Below, in pieces: positions 2,324 through 35,609 of a DNA stretch of 35,609 nucleotides. This stretch comes from a virus. The notes below the pieces were generated by a model. The model had not been told where the DNA came from and did not search any database. It saw only the letters and a program-made list of their open reading frames with translations. Each line of letters starts with the position of its first letter. Positions within the stretch are counted from its first letter, which is position 1. Made by a program: the position numbers and the translations under genes. The DNA is taken from positions 1 to 35,609 of the IMG/VR virus record IMGVR_UViG_3300049825_000947. One strand, written 5' to 3'.

Positions 2324-2358
2324 AAAGGACAATTTTGAGTTTTTTTTTATTGTCCTTT
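2324..2358. repeat. Inverted repeat of the GGAC/GTCC box
   Basis: AAAGGACAAT at 2324-2333 is inverted as ATTGTCCTTT at 2349-2358 around a T-rich 15-base loop. It lies in the 50-bp gap between two leftward genes. Each arm resembles the AAAAAGGACAAAA box seen upstream of late genes, so this may be a two-site version bound by the same factor. The distance to the next ATG (24 nt from GTCC) does not match the other boxes. A weak stem-loop terminator for the upstream gene is also possible. Confidence 0.45.
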
Positions 2359-2851
2359 ATGCCATTGGAATAATTGTTGGTTTAGAGGGTTTTCGTGTTT
2401 CGGAAAAGACAATGTTCTTTTTAAAAATAAATTGCTCCTTTTTTCGTTGAAAATCCTTCAATATTCCGTCAATTTTTAAATCTTCTTCGTTTATCTCAAA
2501 GTTGTCCAGCAATTGTTGAAGTGTGCATTTATAAGAATTTCCGCTCATAAATTTAACCATCAAGGCTGTGCTAAAAATCAATTCTCGCAAATAATCATCG
2601 ACTAAATCATTTATTTTGTAGATGTTATAGGTAAATATTTTTCCATGAGCAGAAATGATATGACCACCAATATAAACGGTGTAGGATTCTGTCAATCCTT
2701 TTTTTGCCAACATTCGCTTATCTTCCTGTGTCAGTAAGTGAATCGATTGTCTTGCTAAAAAATCTCTTTCGGAGAGTGTCCACATGGCACCATATTTATA
2801 GTGCAAAAACTTTTTTACATGAGGCTTTACTGGAATTTCTAATTGAATCAT
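2357..2851 (-). CDS. Hypothetical phage protein (164 aa), possible late regulator
   Basis: The protein begins MIQLEIPVKPHVKKFL and has 164 residues rich in Lys, Phe and Leu, with a basic C-terminus (KKNIVFSETRKPSKP). I cannot place it in a family. A long, probably helical central part (about 85-140) could bind DNA. It is the first gene after the gene-free GTAAC region and stands between the early operon and the head genes. Its own promoter (TATATTTG at 2868-2875) is covered by a 28-bp palindrome. That placement and regulation are what one expects of a late transcription activator or a small terminase subunit; neither role is shown by the sequence. Confidence 0.7.
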   Translation of the reverse strand: MIQLEIPVKPHVKKFLHYKYGAMWTLSERDFLARQSIHLLTQEDKRMLAKKGLTESYTVYIGGHIISAHGKIFTYNIYKINDLVDDYLRELIFSTALMVKFMSGNSYKCTLQQLLDNFEINEEDLKIDGILKDFQRKKEQFIFKKNIVFSETRKPSKPTIIPMA

Positions 2852-2867
2852 TTAAAAAGGGGTTTTA

Positions 2868-2902
2868 CAAATATAAAAATGTATTTTATAAAATACATTT
2901 TT
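2868..2902 (-). promoter_or_regulatory. Promoter with 28-bp palindromic operator
   Basis: Read leftward, TATATTTG (2868-2875) matches the TAnnTTTG -7 element, 17 nt before the ATG at 2851. Directly upstream, 2875-2902 is a perfect 28-bp palindrome centred on TTTATAAA with outer arms containing ATGTATTTTA. It covers the place where the -33 element would be, and no TTG is present there. This looks like an operator or activator site for a dimeric regulator controlling the gene at 2357-2851. Confidence 0.6.
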
Positions 2903-2994
2903 TTACAGGCCTTTTTCGATACAAAAACTAGTTTTTTCACTATTTATTTTCTTTCGTAAAAATACCTGCGGTCTAATAAATGCTAGAAATTTCT

Positions 2995-3200
2995 GTAACT
3001 TTGTAACCGCTATTTAAGTAACTGAAAATTAAATATTTACAAGTTACAACCCTATATTTTTCTAAAAAATAATTTTTGTAACCAACCCTTCTCTTTCTAA
3101 TTGGTTACAATTTTTTTTGTAACCTTTAAATTTAGTTACAAAAAATAAAATAGTATAAATACAGACACAGTCGGGCTTTCCCTAAAGGTTACAGAGTTAC
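2995..3200. repeat. Array of ten GTAAC/GTTAC motifs in a gene-free region
   Basis: GTAAC occurs at 2995, 3003, 3018, 3078 and 3119, and its inverse GTTAC at 3043, 3104, 3135, 3188 and 3196. The wider consensus is TTTTGTAACY. The outer pairs mirror each other: GTAACTTTGTAACC (2995-3008) and GGTTACAGAGTTAC (3187-3200) match at 13 of 14 bases when inverted. An inner hairpin GGTTACAA-T6-TTGTAACC lies at 3103-3124. The whole stretch 2852-3328 has no credible gene. Candidate roles are a replication origin with iterons, a packaging site, or a multi-site operator. Base composition predicts fewer than one copy by chance. Confidence 0.75.
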
Positions 3201-3272
3201 AAAAAATTATTGTTATTTTAAGTAGGGGGTTTGGGAAGGGTTGGGATTGGTTGATTTTTTAATTTTTGTCTA

Positions 3273-3305
3273 TAAAAAAACCACCTTTTTAGGGTGGTTA
3301 AAAAA
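3273..3305 (-). terminator. Rho-independent terminator after the methyltransferase gene
   Basis: Read leftward, AACCACC, loop CTAAAAA, then GGTGGTT is followed by a run of seven T. It begins about 30 nt after the stop codon of the methyltransferase gene (3329) and closes the leftward early operon. The A-run on the other side would also allow some termination rightward, but no rightward gene reads into it. Confidence 0.85.
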
Positions 3306-3328
3306 TAACTTATCCATTTATCTTCGGT

Positions 3329-6267: not shown

Positions 6268-6551
6268 GACGATGTGGATTTAAATGTTTTGTGCTTTAAT
6301 TCTAAATTATCTGTGATTCCATTTGTGTAGATTAAATAATCAACTCTTCCTTTTAGCTTAATTGCATAATCGCCAACTTCATCAATTGTTGGTGCCGCAA
6401 TATCTTTAATGATTGAATCAAGCGTGTCAAACTTCAAATCCTTATTTGTTAAAAAAAAGCCACAGAATTTGATTCCGTTATAAAACAGCAATATTTCTGT
6501 TTGGCTCTTTATTAGCGTTGCCTTTATGCTTGTGATGTTCTTTAAAATCAA
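6261..6551 (-). CDS. Hypothetical protein (96 aa), early operon
   Basis: The frame opens with TTG at 6551, overlapping the TGA of the primase-helicase gene (TTGA). No ATG exists anywhere in the frame, so the start is either this TTG or another near-cognate codon. The 96-residue product contains IIKDIAAPTIDEVGDYAIKL and a short C-terminal tail ending STSSW. I cannot identify it. Its coupling to the helicase gene suggests a replication accessory role, which is inference only. Confidence 0.6.
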   Translation of the reverse strand: MILKNITSIKATLIKSQTEILLFYNGIKFCGFFLTNKDLKFDTLDSIIKDIAAPTIDEVGDYAIKLKGRVDYLIYTNGITDNLELKHKTFKSTSSW

Positions 6552-9394
6552 AATAAATCGTCTTTTTCGTTTGTGTCAAAAATATCATGGTCATTGGTGG
6601 TTATCTCTTTATCTGGACTTTGGATGTATAGATATTCTTTGGTTACGCCATTGTCTTTTCGCATAATTCTACCATCGTATGTATTTTGCAAGGCTTTTGG
6701 ATTTAAAATGTAGCCTCTGTATTCTGCCCAGGCATTCAGTTTTTTCTTAAAAGCAGTTGATGTGGTCATGTTTAAACTCTTGTTTCCTTGCTTCATATGG
6801 TTCATCCAATCTTCTTTGGAGTGATAATCATCGAGTTGATTTATCAAAAAGTCATCTGCCCAATCTTTAAATGTTGGTCCCATAAAAGAAACCAAGTTTC
6901 TCATATGAATCATGTTTTCTGGTGGTTGCATTTTAACTGGGCAACTCAAATAAAATTGCAATGCTTGAGCACAGAAATTAAAATAAAGGTTCCATTGTTC
7001 ACAATCCCAATCGTCAAATAGTTTGTGGTTAAAATCATCTACTGGACTTTTGGGTTCTGCGTGTTGTTCGGTTTTTCCGTGATAATAATCTGAAAATGCC
7101 ACCATTAAGACCCTACCCAATGTTGAAGCATCAACATCTCTTAAAGTATAATTTGACGAAACAGCCATTTTTGGCGAATCCTTAAAAGGAATGGTAAATG
7201 GTTTGTTGTTTTTTGGATTTACATCAAAGTTCCCGGTAATGTGCGTAAATAAATTCCTGAATTTAAAATACTTGTCGGCATCATCAAACAATACATATTT
7301 GGTTATTTCGGATACGCCGTCCAAGAAATGTTTATCATCTAGCATTTGTGGATTCCTAGAGGCTTTTATAAATGATTTTTTCCAAATCTCTAGGCTTTCT
7401 GTATAAATTGATTTTCCTGTTCGTCCGTTGCTTTCGCTTTCATCCACGCCGTTATTCTCCATGGCATAAACCAGCCAAGCCTTGCTTTTGTCTTTATACT
7501 CATGCATTAAGTAGCCATACGCATAAATTTTATTTATTAAATGTTGTTTTTGTTCAAAAATTTCTTCCTCAGTTAAATTGGGCCCAGAAATATTGAATTT
7601 GTTGTCATTAAAATAGTCATCTTTTTTGCTTTGAGGCAACCCAGTAAAAGCGTCTTCTAGTTCTTTTTTCCAATGGATTCTACAGGTTTGTATTAGGTAA
7701 TTAAGAAATTCACAATTGTTGTTTTTCAACTCTATATCATAATTCCCTGACTCATCTTTTTTTATTTCAAATAAAGGTTCAACCAGGTTTACTTTTTTAA
7801 GGTCTAAATCATACCCAAACTTTCTTTTTATTTTTTTGTCCACCACATTGTCTTCCCAAACGCTTCTCGAAGTTTTGTCAAGTGGTTTCGTGATAATTCC
7901 TTCCGATGATATTTCCCAAATCTTGTTACTAAAAAATAAAAGCTGTGAATTTTGGGTATAATTTTTAAAATCCAAATCGATTGTTTTTAAGTTACTCAAC
8001 GAATTTTCACTCACCCGGGAGCTGTTATAAACCGTGTTTCTTAATTCATTGGAAACGCCGTACATAATATGATTACCCAGTTCGGCTTGTTTTGTCTCTA
8101 AAAACTGATTGATGTATTCTTTTACGTTCTGTGGCGTTACTTTTGTTACTAAATGATTTTCTCTTTTAATAAAAAGATAATCTTCTTTTTCACCTTTAGC
8201 CTCAAACTTATTGAATCCAGAAAGGCTTAAAAAATTATAAAGACGCACATTGTCTATGTAATATTTAACATCGTCTTTAGCTATAAAAGTGTTCCAAAAT
8301 TTTAAAGGCATGGCCAAATCAAATAGCCTTTTTACATTTTTGGTTATTGTATAAGAATTGGAGCCAAAAGATTTAACAAAATCTGTAAAATCCTTTTTAA
8401 AATGACCTCTAAAATCTTTTGTTTTGCTCAACCATTCCGGTAACCAGGCAATGGTTAAATCCAAATAATTTAATCCGTTTTGTATCGCTTTCTCTCTTCC
8501 TGTTTGGTCTATGTCTGGGCATAAAATAACCGCATGAGCCATTTTATTTAAATCTTTCCAAAGCTTTGGGCTCAAACCCTCCGTTTCAGAGTTTAGCCAA
8601 ATAACCAACTCTCCGCATGAAGCAATGTTTATAGAATCCCTATCGCCAGAGCCAATGACGATTCTGTCAAGTTTTGCCTCTTTGTTTGTGTTATCCTCTG
8701 TGCCAACTTCGGCTTCTTTTTGTAAATCATTGTATTTTTTCTCCACTATGTTTAAGCCAAAAACAAAGTCTTTTGGCTTTCCGTTTGGGTAAAAAAACCG
8801 ATAGGCTTTGTCTTGGTTTTTGGGTTGATAGATTTTTTGCCACAATTTTCCTTCCTTGTCTTTGTTTTCAAACATAAAAATAGGGTAGTGGTCTGTTGAT
8901 CTTATTTCTGTTACCTCATTGTTGCTTTTTTTAGCCATAAACTCTAGGCTAAAAAGATTGTACTTGTTGCATAAATCTTCGGTAACCAGTGGGCCTAGTA
9001 TTTTCAACTCTTCATCGGTAAAGTTTTTTGTTTTAAAATACCAATCGCCCTGTTCAAAAACATAATCTACTTCTGCCAGTTTTTTCTTTCTAATATCAGA
9101 TTTCAATACATGCTCTTTGTTTAAGAGTCCTAATTTGGCAGACAGATGTAAAATAGATTCACCATAAGTTAACCCTTCTTCAAAGGCTGTTACCATAATG
9201 GCGTTTCTTGGCACAGAATCAAATCCAAAATCAGTCACCACATAATTGCCATCTGCCAGTTTTTTTATAGAAGCCGAAGCGGTTCGTTCTTCTCTTAGTT
9301 TAAAGTTTTTACCCTCTTTGGCATTTGGATAATAATTTAAAATAATATCCAGCCCACCATTGGTTTGTTGTAGGATTTGTTCTGATAATTGCAT
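6548..9394 (-). CDS. Replicative primase-helicase with TOPRIM and SF3 helicase domains
   Basis: This 948-residue protein is the replication enzyme of the phage. Residues about 1-110 form an N-terminal region resembling CHC2-less phage primases. A TOPRIM-like core follows: VIGSGDRDS (about 246-254) and ILCPDIDQTGREKA (about 290-303), with the DxD metal site. The C-terminal part is a superfamily 3 helicase with Walker A GRTGKS (657-662), Walker B YVLFDDADK (700-708) and motif C KMAVSSNY (742-749). It should unwind and prime phage DNA, acting with the SSB-like protein downstream. It is the largest early gene; the ATG at 9394 follows the previous stop by 3 bp. Confidence 0.9.
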   Translation of the reverse strand: MQLSEQILQQTNGGLDIILNYYPNAKEGKNFKLREERTASASIKKLADGNYVVTDFGFDSVPRNAIMVTAFEEGLTYGESILHLSAKLGLLNKEHVLKSDIRKKKLAEVDYVFEQGDWYFKTKNFTDEELKILGPLVTEDLCNKYNLFSLEFMAKKSNNEVTEIRSTDHYPIFMFENKDKEGKLWQKIYQPKNQDKAYRFFYPNGKPKDFVFGLNIVEKKYNDLQKEAEVGTEDNTNKEAKLDRIVIGSGDRDSINIASCGELVIWLNSETEGLSPKLWKDLNKMAHAVILCPDIDQTGREKAIQNGLNYLDLTIAWLPEWLSKTKDFRGHFKKDFTDFVKSFGSNSYTITKNVKRLFDLAMPLKFWNTFIAKDDVKYYIDNVRLYNFLSLSGFNKFEAKGEKEDYLFIKRENHLVTKVTPQNVKEYINQFLETKQAELGNHIMYGVSNELRNTVYNSSRVSENSLSNLKTIDLDFKNYTQNSQLLFFSNKIWEISSEGIITKPLDKTSRSVWEDNVVDKKIKRKFGYDLDLKKVNLVEPLFEIKKDESGNYDIELKNNNCEFLNYLIQTCRIHWKKELEDAFTGLPQSKKDDYFNDNKFNISGPNLTEEEIFEQKQHLINKIYAYGYLMHEYKDKSKAWLVYAMENNGVDESESNGRTGKSIYTESLEIWKKSFIKASRNPQMLDDKHFLDGVSEITKYVLFDDADKYFKFRNLFTHITGNFDVNPKNNKPFTIPFKDSPKMAVSSNYTLRDVDASTLGRVLMVAFSDYYHGKTEQHAEPKSPVDDFNHKLFDDWDCEQWNLYFNFCAQALQFYLSCPVKMQPPENMIHMRNLVSFMGPTFKDWADDFLINQLDDYHSKEDWMNHMKQGNKSLNMTTSTAFKKKLNAWAEYRGYILNPKALQNTYDGRIMRKDNGVTKEYLYIQSPDKEITTNDHDIFDTNEKDDLF

Positions 9395-23663: not shown

Positions 23664-24734
23664 TCAGCTATATTTTGGTTTATCATTAGGAAATAAAGCA
23701 ATAAAATCTTCTTCTGTCAATACCTTTGTTTTTAAACTTTCTATTTGTTGTAATTTCTTAGGACCAGCATTCCTTCCTACAATAACATAATCCGTTTTAG
23801 ATGAGATTGATGTGTTTACATCCGCCCCAACATCATGTAGCCATTTAGCCATTTCATCCCTATATGGGAATTTTTCAAATATACCAGTAATAACAACTTT
23901 TTTAGAATTTAACAAATGATGTGAATCCACTTTTTGTGGTTCTTTATAAGAAGATTTAATTTGTTTTGATTTAAAAAATAAAATATCATCTTCACCTAGA
24001 CCTGGATTACTGGTTTTCAATCTTTTTTTTATATGAATGGTTTCATTTAAATACTTTATAACATCTAAAACACAAAAATCATAAAGATTTTGATGATTTG
24101 ATTTTAAGTGAGCATAACTCTTTAAATGAGAAGTAAAATATATCATATAAAACAATAAAATAGAGGTAATTAGTTCATTGTTATTATAAATTTCTACATG
24201 ATAATTGTAAAGTTTTTTAAAACCATGACAATTTTTACCAGCTCTTTCTATCATTAAATCAACATCTCCCACCCCCAACAAATCTGAGACATTCTTTTTG
24301 CTAGCTGCAATATATTGGTATTCATCAATAACTATATTTTCATTAAATGTGTCAGAATAAAGATTTGAATATTCAGAAGAATCAATTTCTTCATTATTAT
24401 TGTTTTGCATCATTTTTATATTTGAGTCTTTTTTAAAATTAACGGTATAAGTTTTAGCCTCCGATTTTATTGATTTTGCTTCTGAAATAGCCTCTAGTAA
24501 TTTTTTATTAGCTTGGTTAATAATTTCTTTGGATTTTTCTTCGGCATCTAAAACTCCTTGATATTTCTCCAACTTTGATTTTAAAACAGCTATTTCGTCA
24601 TGTTTGTTTTTTAAATTAGAAAAGGCGGTTCGTTCATTGCTTAAAGATTCTTTTAGTGTAATTATTTTCTTTTTATGATTTCTAGCCTCTATAATTAATA
24701 CAATCCATAATACTAACGATAATATCCAAGCCAT
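23664..24734 (-). CDS. Membrane-anchored BRCT-domain protein (356 aa)
   Basis: The protein starts with a likely N-terminal membrane anchor (MAWILSLVLWIVLIIEARNH, about 2-16) and then a coiled coil to about 95 (ERTAFSNLKNKHDEI, KLEKYQGVLDAEEKS). A helical centre of unknown type (about 140-240) follows. Residues about 275-347 form a BRCT domain like that of NAD-dependent DNA ligase: KKVVITGIFEKFPYRDEM, WLHDVGADVNTSIS, and KTDYVIVGRNAGPKKLQQ. BRCT domains bind DNA ends, phosphopeptides or poly(ADP-ribose). A BRCT domain behind a membrane anchor in a phage island is unusual; its role is unknown. Confidence 0.8.
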   Translation of the reverse strand: MAWILSLVLWIVLIIEARNHKKKIITLKESLSNERTAFSNLKNKHDEIAVLKSKLEKYQGVLDAEEKSKEIINQANKKLLEAISEAKSIKSEAKTYTVNFKKDSNIKMMQNNNNEEIDSSEYSNLYSDTFNENIVIDEYQYIAASKKNVSDLLGVGDVDLMIERAGKNCHGFKKLYNYHVEIYNNNELITSILLFYMIYFTSHLKSYAHLKSNHQNLYDFCVLDVIKYLNETIHIKKRLKTSNPGLGEDDILFFKSKQIKSSYKEPQKVDSHHLLNSKKVVITGIFEKFPYRDEMAKWLHDVGADVNTSISSKTDYVIVGRNAGPKKLQQIESLKTKVLTEEDFIALFPNDKPKYS

Positions 24735-27443: not shown

Positions 27444-27959
27444 TTAATTTTTTTTTATCTGAAAGTGCATACCTTTTACTGGTTTATTGTTTTTAAGACC
27501 ATAATGTATTGTACTAATGCCAACACCTGTTACTCTACTTGCTTCAGAAATACCATTATATAAAATACCATTACAAGTTATTTCAATACTTCTATTATGT
27601 TCTTTACCGAATTTACCTTTATATGTTTGATTATTTACTTTAACCCCTCCATTTTCATAATGATGTTTCATGTTTTCCTTTGGTGTAACCCATTCTAAAT
27701 TATTTTTATGATTATTTAGTTTATTTCTGTCTTTATGATTTACTTGCTCTTTATTTTCAGGGTTACTGATAAAATATTTAGCCACCAATCTATGTACTAA
27801 ATAATTTTTTCTTTTTCCATTTGAAATATAAATTTGAACCAACAAATAAGGAGATGTACCTCCGTTTCTTAGTTTTTTTAATCCCTTTGTTTTTCTGTTT
27901 CTGACCTTACCAGTTTCAGAAACTTCATAATTTGTTTCTTCAATTTGACACCAACTCAT
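27444..27959 (-). CDS. HNH homing endonuclease with NUMOD domains
   Basis: The ATG at 27959 (MSWCQIEETNYEVSETGK) begins the NUMOD4 domain; the same frame is open further upstream, overlapping the endolysin end, but no residue there is conserved. NUMOD4 covers about 2-50, HNH (VNHKDRNKLNNHKNNLEWVT, with H75 and the N-terminal Asn pair) about 73-93, and a NUMOD1-like DNA-binding tail (GISEASRVTGVGISTIHYGL) about 136-155. It nicks or cuts DNA to spread its own gene. It sits as a free-standing gene between the endolysin and holin genes. No split gene or intron is visible. Confidence 0.9.
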   Translation of the reverse strand: MSWCQIEETNYEVSETGKVRNRKTKGLKKLRNGGTSPYLLVQIYISNGKRKNYLVHRLVAKYFISNPENKEQVNHKDRNKLNNHKNNLEWVTPKENMKHHYENGGVKVNNQTYKGKFGKEHNRSIEITCNGILYNGISEASRVTGVGISTIHYGLKNNKPVKGMHFQIKKN

Positions 27960-28008
27960 AATTTTATTATTTATTACTAATATAATCAAATTTACTGAAA
28001 GTGCGACA

Positions 28009-28473
28009 TTATATAGATGCAATTTCCATGTGCATACCATCTTTTCTTTTCCAATTTCCGCCCCATTCACAACCTGAATCTGTAAAACATTTCACGAAGC
28101 CACTACTTAATTTGGGAATTTGGTTTAATTGATTTTCAAAAGCATTGACATCAACAGCCAACGCCCAAGAGTGAAGCGACAAGGATTTTAGCCCTCTTTT
28201 GCTCCTAATCATAAAACAACCATCCCAAGTCTTCAATTCTTTTGAAAAGCCTCTACTAACCACATTTTTTAGCGATTTTTCTAGTACAGGTAAAAAGTCT
28301 TTATTGACAAATATCCTTTTAGGAAAACCAATTGTACCAACTGCCGAAAACCGAACATGACTAAATGCGTTTCTTATGTCCATTGGAACTTCCCAAATAA
28401 TAAAATGTTTGTTTTGGGTAGCCAATAAATTTGGGTCTCCGTATTTTTTTAAACATTGTGCTGATGTTATCAT
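28009..28473 (-). CDS. M15-family peptidase, endolysin
   Basis: The ATG at 28473 (MITSAQCLKKYGDPN) is preferred over a TTG at 28482. The 154-residue protein is an M15_4-type L-alanyl-D-glutamate or D-Ala-D-Ala peptidase. The zinc ligands are seen in SLHSWALAVDVN (H101, D108) and GNWKRKDGMHMEI (H148, with D145 as the catalytic base). It should cut cell-wall peptides at lysis. No signal peptide is present, so release depends on the holin. The stop is 50 bp before the HNH gene. Confidence 0.92.
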   Translation of the reverse strand: MITSAQCLKKYGDPNLLATQNKHFIIWEVPMDIRNAFSHVRFSAVGTIGFPKRIFVNKDFLPVLEKSLKNVVSRGFSKELKTWDGCFMIRSKRGLKSLSLHSWALAVDVNAFENQLNQIPKLSSGFVKCFTDSGCEWGGNWKRKDGMHMEIASI

Positions 28474-30232: not shown

Positions 30233-31558
30233 TTAAATTGATTGTTTAATATCTATTACTTCTCCTAATGCGTTGGTTTCAAACCAAATGAATGGCGTAG
30301 CAGAACCTGGCTCTGTTTGTTGGATGAATACATTAGGTGTTCCTGCTAACTCGTCCGTATAAGCTAATCCTTTCCATGAACTTCCATTATGAATATGGGG
30401 TCTATTGTTGTCTCCAGAGTTGAAAATGAGCATTCCGCTAAATGGAAGCGTTATGCTTGATAATGCGGTAACAAAGAATCTAGCAGCACCTTCCCATCCC
30501 ACAGAAAATTTCATTCCACCTCTAATTACTTCTAATATATTATTGCCAGGAGCTCCATTAGTCGATTCAAATCTACCAGCCACTCCATATTCAGTTGTCA
30601 CACCAAGCACTCCAACCCCACTAGGAGATGACCCCGTAACCCCAGTTCCCTCATCATTTAATGCCGCACTGTTTAATCCTCTAGTAGATACGGCCTTATT
30701 GGTAGTAGCTCCTATATCGGTCACTTGCTGTAGATTAGCAGTAGGCACGGTATCGTCCGTATAAGCTAATCCTTTCCATGCAGACCCATTATATACCGTA
30801 GGTCTATTAGAAGATTCACTATTAAATATAATCATTCCCGATAGTGGATTAGTAATACTAGCTAATGTTGCCCTGAATATTCTAACTGCCCCATTTTTAA
30901 ATACAGTAAACGCATCACTTCTATTACTCGAGTCAGAACCATTACCATAATTAACTAATCTATCAGTATCATCATCAGCAGCAGTATAGTCAGTACCCCA
31001 CATACCTCCGCTATGTTCACTTTGACTTCTAGAATAATTACCTTGTCCTTCTACGTGAGAGTAAGTTCCGTCGTTATAGTTATTAGCTCCTTCAGTGTGT
31101 GAACTATTAGAAAGAGGTGTATTAGTATTGCTAACACCTTCTATATGAGAGTTATTAGCATTATTACTATTATTAGCCCCTTCAGTATGTGAATTATTAG
31201 ATATTACATTATGACCTACACCTTCTACATGACTGTAACTTCCTTGATTATAATTACCTCCTCCTTCCGTATGGGAATTATAAGATGTATTAGAAACAGT
31301 ATTACCCTCTCCTTGCACATAACAATTATAACCTGCTCCAATATTATAAGACCCCACTACTACTGCTAATGGGCCTGTGGCTCCATACTCAGTAGATTCT
31401 GAATCAGAATAACTAAGATCTATTGAGTCGAGTCCTACATTACCATAAAATGCGGGGTTTCTACCTGCAATTACATGTCCAATCCCGTTGCCTTCATTTA
31501 ATGGGGTTAGAGAGCTAGCGGTAAGCCCTTGAATCTGTTTAGCTTTCATCTTAGCCAT
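30233..31558 (-). CDS. Tail fibre protein with YadA-head-like SHxEG repeats (441 aa)
   Basis: The protein begins MAKMKAKQIQGLTASSL, similar to the next fibre gene's N-terminus. Residues about 90-190 contain seven copies of a short unit with SHTEG or SHVEG and Asn-rich turns (GANNSNNANNSHIEG), the left-handed beta-roll of YadA-type trimeric adhesins. The C-terminal half holds a duplicated unit: SGMIIFNSESSNRPTVYNGS, and SGMLIFNSGDNNRPHIHNGS, each followed by WKGLAYTD. It should form a trimeric fibre touching the host. The duplication is also seen as a 28-bp DNA direct repeat. Confidence 0.85.
   Translation of the reverse strand: MAKMKAKQIQGLTASSLTPLNEGNGIGHVIAGRNPAFYGNVGLDSIDLSYSDSESTEYGATGPLAVVVGSYNIGAGYNCYVQGEGNTVSNTSYNSHTEGGGNYNQGSYSHVEGVGHNVISNNSHTEGANNSNNANNSHIEGVSNTNTPLSNSSHTEGANNYNDGTYSHVEGQGNYSRSQSEHSGGMWGTDYTAADDDTDRLVNYGNGSDSSNRSDAFTVFKNGAVRIFRATLASITNPLSGMIIFNSESSNRPTVYNGSAWKGLAYTDDTVPTANLQQVTDIGATTNKAVSTRGLNSAALNDEGTGVTGSSPSGVGVLGVTTEYGVAGRFESTNGAPGNNILEVIRGGMKFSVGWEGAARFFVTALSSITLPFSGMLIFNSGDNNRPHIHNGSSWKGLAYTDELAGTPNVFIQQTEPGSATPFIWFETNALGEVIDIKQSI
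30351..30780. repeat. 28-bp direct repeat within the tail fibre gene
   Basis: The exact 28-base sequence beginning TCGTCCGTATAAGCTAATCC occurs at 30351-30378 and again at 30753-30780, 402 bp apart. It encodes part of the repeated WKGLAYTD unit. Recombination between copies would delete 402 bp, which is 134 codons, in frame. Confidence 0.85.
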
Positions 31559-35474: not shown

Positions 35475-35517
35475 CGAATTTCATTCATACGCATTAAAGA
35501 AAAAAGGACAAAAAAAA
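35475..35517 (-). promoter_or_regulatory. Candidate late promoter (GTCC box) for the portal operon
   Basis: Read leftward, TTTTTTTTGTCCTTTTTT (35500-35517) is followed 30 nt later by GAAATTCG (35475-35482), a weak -7 match, and the ATG at 35470 after 4 nt. GTCC-to-ATG is 39 nt. The remaining bases to the window edge (35518-35609) show no gene, except possibly the last codons of one entering from beyond the edge. Confidence 0.55.
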
Positions 35518-35609
35518 CAGCAAGATTTCCATTAGTTTTGATTTTTTTTGTAGCCTCACTTAATTGTTTTTAAAGATTATAAATCATTCATTTATAGCGT
35601 AATTTGAAT

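Follow-up and report, generated by a model that had tools for sequence, protein, structure and literature searches.

The alpha protein of phage P4 is a fused primase-helicase that initiates replication at iterons (ori/crr), as is proposed below for the phage represented by the window, that is, the whole 35,609-base virus record analysed here. The P4 iteron differs from that of the window, P4 needs two cis sites, and the two systems are likened by description and not by sequence. In phages Sfi21 and Sfi11 of Streptococcus thermophilus (Firmicutes), the origin (PER element) comprises about 300 bp (for Sfi21, 302 bp as published and 298 bp in the record) and adjoins the gene of a phage helicase of the Pox_D5 type that carries a DUF5906 domain and has no TOPRIM part according to Pfam. 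Each of the two origins contains 11 GTAAC/GTTAC pentamers (mean in shuffled sequences, 1.3-1.4), with pairs spaced by 8 bp. In Sfi11, a putative rep_origin is annotated 3' of the helicase gene, and the annotated origin of Sfi21, called a phage inhibitory sequence, has been reported to be an infection-activated replication origin that blocks phages by its copy number (PMC6356513).

At the SaPI origins, those of SaPI5 Rep and SaPIbov1 Rep among them, a helicase that loads itself binds short iterons. The C-terminal domain of the SaPI Rep helicases recognizes these iterons, and the helicases may do so as two hexamers; AAGTG pentamers are required by Cch2, the helicase of SCCmec (PMC7581432). Unlike the window, the SaPIs are satellite islands in which the origin lies directly downstream of rep, and the SaPI5 primase is an AEP and not a TOPRIM enzyme; this likeness was drawn without the iteron sequences. 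The putative origin of SCCmec Cch2, where pentamer iterons are recognized by a D5-type helicase, also resembles our proposal, but it includes only three iterons of a different pentamer and does not belong to a phage.

The window shares with the Sfi21/Sfi11 origin the same GTAAC/GTTAC pentamers arranged in 8-bp-spaced pairs, the AT-richness and the link to a DUF5906 helicase, and differs from it in the order of the sites and in its mirrored terminal pairs, which the Sfi21/Sfi11 origin lacks. Furthermore, whereas that origin is located directly 3' of the helicase gene, several genes lie between the array and the helicase gene in the window, and one small gene does so in its relative, Bacteroides phage BT-TP2.

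The GTAAC array and its surroundings

Exactly ten GTAAC/GTTAC pentamers are found within 206 bp of the window (positions 2995-3200), forming a dense array of a single short repeat in a gene-free gap of 477 bp (2852-3328). The original prediction had reported this number against an expectation of less than one, and the excess is borne out by 5000 dinucleotide shuffles of the stretch (mean 0.9, maximum 6 pentamers); when the whole window was shuffled 1000 times, the densest 206 bp had at most five, and the runner-up cluster of the window itself has five copies. The array is two-ended and mirror-like: GTAACTTTGTAACC on the plus strand (2995-3008) is identical at 13 of 14 bases to the inverted opposite end (3187-3200, minus-strand GTAACTCTGTAACC), and the spacing within each terminal pair, left and right, is 8 bp. 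In the centre, GGTTACAA (3103-3110) and TTGTAACC (3117-3124) form a perfect hairpin with a 6-nt loop, GGTTACAA-TTTTTT-TTGTAACC (3103-3124). One end of the array is flanked by a G-rich tract, GGGGGTTTGGGAAGGGTTGGG (3225-3245, plus strand), which is C-rich on the early-sense strand. The mirrored ends and the hairpin, already described in the original prediction, were recovered in the sequence, as was the placement of the array between the head genes and a hairpin (3279-3299, minus strand) that resembles a terminator and closes the early operon. The first head gene encodes a conserved 164-aa protein (2357-2851, minus strand) and is the usual neighbour of the array.

The window represents a tailed, probably temperate phage, whose genes include those of a tyrosine integrase and of an S49 protease of the head. 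Among annotated phages, the nearest relatives found were BT-TP2 and Polaribacter phage Leef_1 (Helgolandviridae), the 948-aa primase of the window being 38-40% identical to theirs. In all three phages, the primase gene comes before the gap, which is followed by the gene of the 164-aa protein or its homologue, a second small gene and the gene of the S49 protease. The gap of Leef_1 has 13 copies of GTAAT and that of BT-TP2 has 11 of GTAAC, and both arrays end in inverted pairs as the array of the window does. There is one array of this type per genome in the three phages, and their cumulative GC skew shows no switch at the array.

The 35.6-kb record looks incomplete: a terminase gene was not identified, and the record is cut within a gene (1-442 and 35494-35609), the 147-aa start of which resembles, by eye, the 348-aa capsid-like protein of locus L167. 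Several other genes of the window stood out by eye. A 356-aa protein (23664-24734, minus strand) has an apparent C-terminal BRCT domain of the DNA-ligase type, which is unusual in a phage; an ORF resembling HNH homing endonucleases (27444-28070) overlaps the end of an M15 peptidase gene; and a tail-fibre-like protein (30233-31558) contains repeats (SHVEG...) that resemble trimeric autotransporter adhesins.

Conservation among Bacteroidota phages and prophages

Single-sequence searches of viral contigs with the 164-aa protein and the primase of the window yielded no matches, and homologue searches worked from alignments of three relatives. The search with the primase alignment identified 80 viral loci and 80 loci in bacterial genome contigs, the named organisms of the latter being Bacteroidota. 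Arrays were located with a motif-blind detector that looks for two pairs with 8-bp spacing, inverted relative to each other and separated by 195-279 bp, and for further copies between them. At a detector score of at least 5, 122 of 158 loci had a two-ended array downstream of the primase-helicase gene, against 5 of 73 controls taken upstream; at a score of at least 7, the numbers were 109 of 158 and one, respectively. The layout is conserved among Bacteroidota phages and prophages that carry the same TOPRIM and SF3 primase-helicase, and the distance between the array and the primase gene reaches about 9 kb among the loci.

The 114 arrays with a score of at least 6 span 207-279 bp and contain 7-17 copies (median 11). 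Their AT content is 70.5%, against 58.1% for the loci, and is higher in the array in all 114 cases; by base composition, they provide the AT-rich region for strand opening that is expected of an iteron origin. In many relatives, the centre of the array consists of GTTAC, an A-rich spacer and GTAAC. A C-rich tract is present on the early side of the array in 91 of the 114 relatives and on the other side in 13 (background, 15%); only this tract is general, G-quadruplex potential being detected in 3 of the 114 arrays.

By the original prediction, relatives with the same neighbours but no motifs would have spoken against it; most relatives have the array, although some lineages are without a detectable one. 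No array was detected in 36 of the 158 loci, some of which are incomplete, and prophages of Aquimarina, Leeuwenhoekiella, Mesonia and Capnocytophaga, several of them with enough sequence, show no clear two-ended array downstream of the primase. In these prophages, which share the primase family (L096, L097, L111, L130, L136, L163 and L164), the origin may have moved or use another layout. Arrays without a primase were found in L167 and L175, two records that appear to be truncated.

Concerted repeat changes and the proposed initiator

The repeats of one array agree with each other but are different from lineage to lineage, usually at a single base, as would be expected if the site is recognized by a protein that evolves along with it. 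The motif classes are TGTAAC (52), TGTAAT (21), TGTTAC (10), xTTAAC (8), TGTATC (7), TGTAAG (5), TGAAAC (3) and single cases. For 80 loci with all four proteins, quick trees were built from equal numbers of columns: the motif class changes 15.2 +/- 0.8 times on the primase trees, 19.6 +/- 1.1 times on those of the 164-aa protein (p164), 21.3 times on those of p177 and 21.2 times on those of the S49 protease, against 38.6 changes with shuffled labels. The motif class tracks the primase tree better than the other three, by a moderate margin. Linkage alone does not explain this fit, because p164 and p177 are usually encoded nearer to the array than the primase. An exploratory scan of the primase for motif-linked divergence gave the strongest signal at residues 1-120 and a weaker one at the C-terminus; the signal is thus not confined to the C-terminal domain, and either region may read the DNA. 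No small early protein present throughout the loci was found as an alternative binder: the other families occur in at most 47 of the 114 loci, apart from one seeming exception, which was interpreted as the primase picked up by a P-loop profile that had drifted.

The primase-helicase (6548-9394, minus strand) belongs to the same early operon, about 3.3 kb from the array, and its sequence contains SF3-like signatures (Walker A GRTGKS, Walker B LFDD and motif C SSN). In its AlphaFold model (mean pLDDT 87), the TOPRIM primase part resembles T7 gp4 (Z 16.2 for the T7 gp4 primase) and DnaG, the helicase part matches best SaPI5 Rep (Z 18.6 over 314 residues, 3.7 A) and is close to vaccinia/mpox D5 (Z about 17.6), and the C-terminal end is winged-helix-like. 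DUF5906 (PF19263) matches 18 of 51 members of the window's primase family. The GTAAC pentamers are probably bound by the phage's own primase-helicase.

Given the conservation of the layout, the tracking of the primase tree by the motif, the predicted SF3/SaPI5-Rep fold and the presence of the same pentamers in the published Sfi21 origin, we consider it highly probable that the array is an iteron replication origin of the SF3-initiator-helicase type, the first of three readings that the original prediction had offered. In such an origin, two groups of 948-aa proteins, facing each other, would assemble on the pentamers, melt the AT-rich DNA among the repeats and next to them and load as helicase rings, and the fused TOPRIM primase would prime both strands. 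The two ends of the array may load two hexamers, and replication may be bidirectional. Points that speak against an origin read by the primase-helicase are the absence of a GC-skew switch at the array, the loci with no detected array, the distance of up to about 9 kb from the primase gene and the signal at primase residues 1-120.

Of the other two readings offered, that of a multi-copy operator, or late-promoter control region, where a phage regulator such as the 164-aa protein binds the pentamers and controls the head operon, is unlikely as the main role. It agrees with the short distance, at most 260 bp, between the array and the 164-aa gene in 68 loci, but in about 30 relatives the two are 0.3-4.6 kb apart, several with intervening genes, the motif class follows the primase more closely, and the same array occurs 3' of helicase genes in phages where the 164-aa gene was not found. 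A fold search with the model of the 164-aa protein gave no convincing match to a known fold, which is weak evidence in the same direction. A double role, in which the origin also takes part in transcription control, is conceivable. Binding by terminase at a packaging site (pac or cos) would suit most relatives, in which the head operon starts at the array, and small-terminase sites can be repeats. Nevertheless, this reading is highly improbable: in Leef_1, the TerS and TerL homologues (gp47 and gp48) are encoded 6-8 kb away from the array, and the annotated cos site of Sfi21 is about 6 kb from its GTAAC origin. The cos ends predicted for Leef by PhageTerm, the exact place of which is not given, also count against it (PMC8776804).

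The terminal inverted repeats had at first raised the suspicion of transposon-like ends or a phage attachment site with integrase arm sites, the latter being compatible with the two-armed layout and with the integrase gene just upstream in Leef_1. This idea was dropped and its probability is practically negligible, as integration would split attP, yet both-ended arrays are intact in integrated prophages in 11 host contigs of more than 90 kb, including one complete chromosome; in the window, moreover, the integrase is about 8 kb from the array. Alternatively, replication might start at some other site, and the array might serve the primase-helicase as a replication-control or incompatibility site; P4 offers a model with its crr, a second iteron site apart from ori. 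A control site would fit the large distances between some arrays and the initiator gene, but it is very unlikely, since the window, Leef_1 and BT-TP2 each have a single such array and the corresponding element of Sfi21 reportedly functions as an origin (PMC6356513).

With the array read as an iteron origin, the kind of element is known from Sfi21 and SaPI, and the mirrored, C-rich-flanked version, often located kilobases from the initiator gene, is best regarded as a new form. We found no description of this form, nor of any replication origin for these Bacteroidota phages and prophages, in the open-access papers searched. The array thus offers a testable origin for a large group that includes phages of marine flavobacteria, gut Bacteroides, Prevotella and Muribaculaceae, and lineages in which all repeats of an array changed along with the primase are ready-made pairs for studying how an initiator helicase reads its iteron.

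Related arrays beside VapE and DUF5906 helicases

A DNA-pattern search with the terminal pair alone retrieved 29 viral contigs. The assumption that GTAAC arrays are exclusive to the primase family of the window proved wrong, as 25 of the records found lack it (positive controls were run) and several of these carry VapE or other DUF5906 helicases instead. In several unrelated phages, real arrays are located directly 3' of VapE (PF05272) or other DUF5906 (PF19263) genes; six matches inside one marine phage gene were attributed to chance. Arrays built from different repeats, e.g. GTCAAC, TGCAACA and ATCGGTAGC, occupy the same place in further VapE phages, and no array was detected 3' of VapE in four named VapE phages (L213-L216).

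The iteron sequence ties the Bacteroidota phages to a studied dairy-phage origin, and we tentatively consider it quite possible that TGTAAC iterons and SF3 (DUF5906/VapE/D5) helicases constitute one ancient class of phage origins in Bacteroidota and Firmicutes, where the iteron changes base by base along with the helicase and the Bacteroidota branch has become mirrored, C-rich-flanked and uncoupled from the initiator gene. If so, the collection would represent a natural record of specificity switching between a protein and its DNA site. Cloned arrays might also serve as phage-resistance decoys, like the Sfi21 element.

Two further observations concern other phages. In L186 and L203, nine GTAAC copies occur in a GC-richer phage with no recognized helicase gene nearby. 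In the pneumococcal phage L219, a different iteron occupies the same place, with eleven CTACC/GGTAG copies directly 3' of the VirE gene, in a stretch that begins 60 bp ahead of the gene's end at position 2784 and extends 330 bp beyond it.
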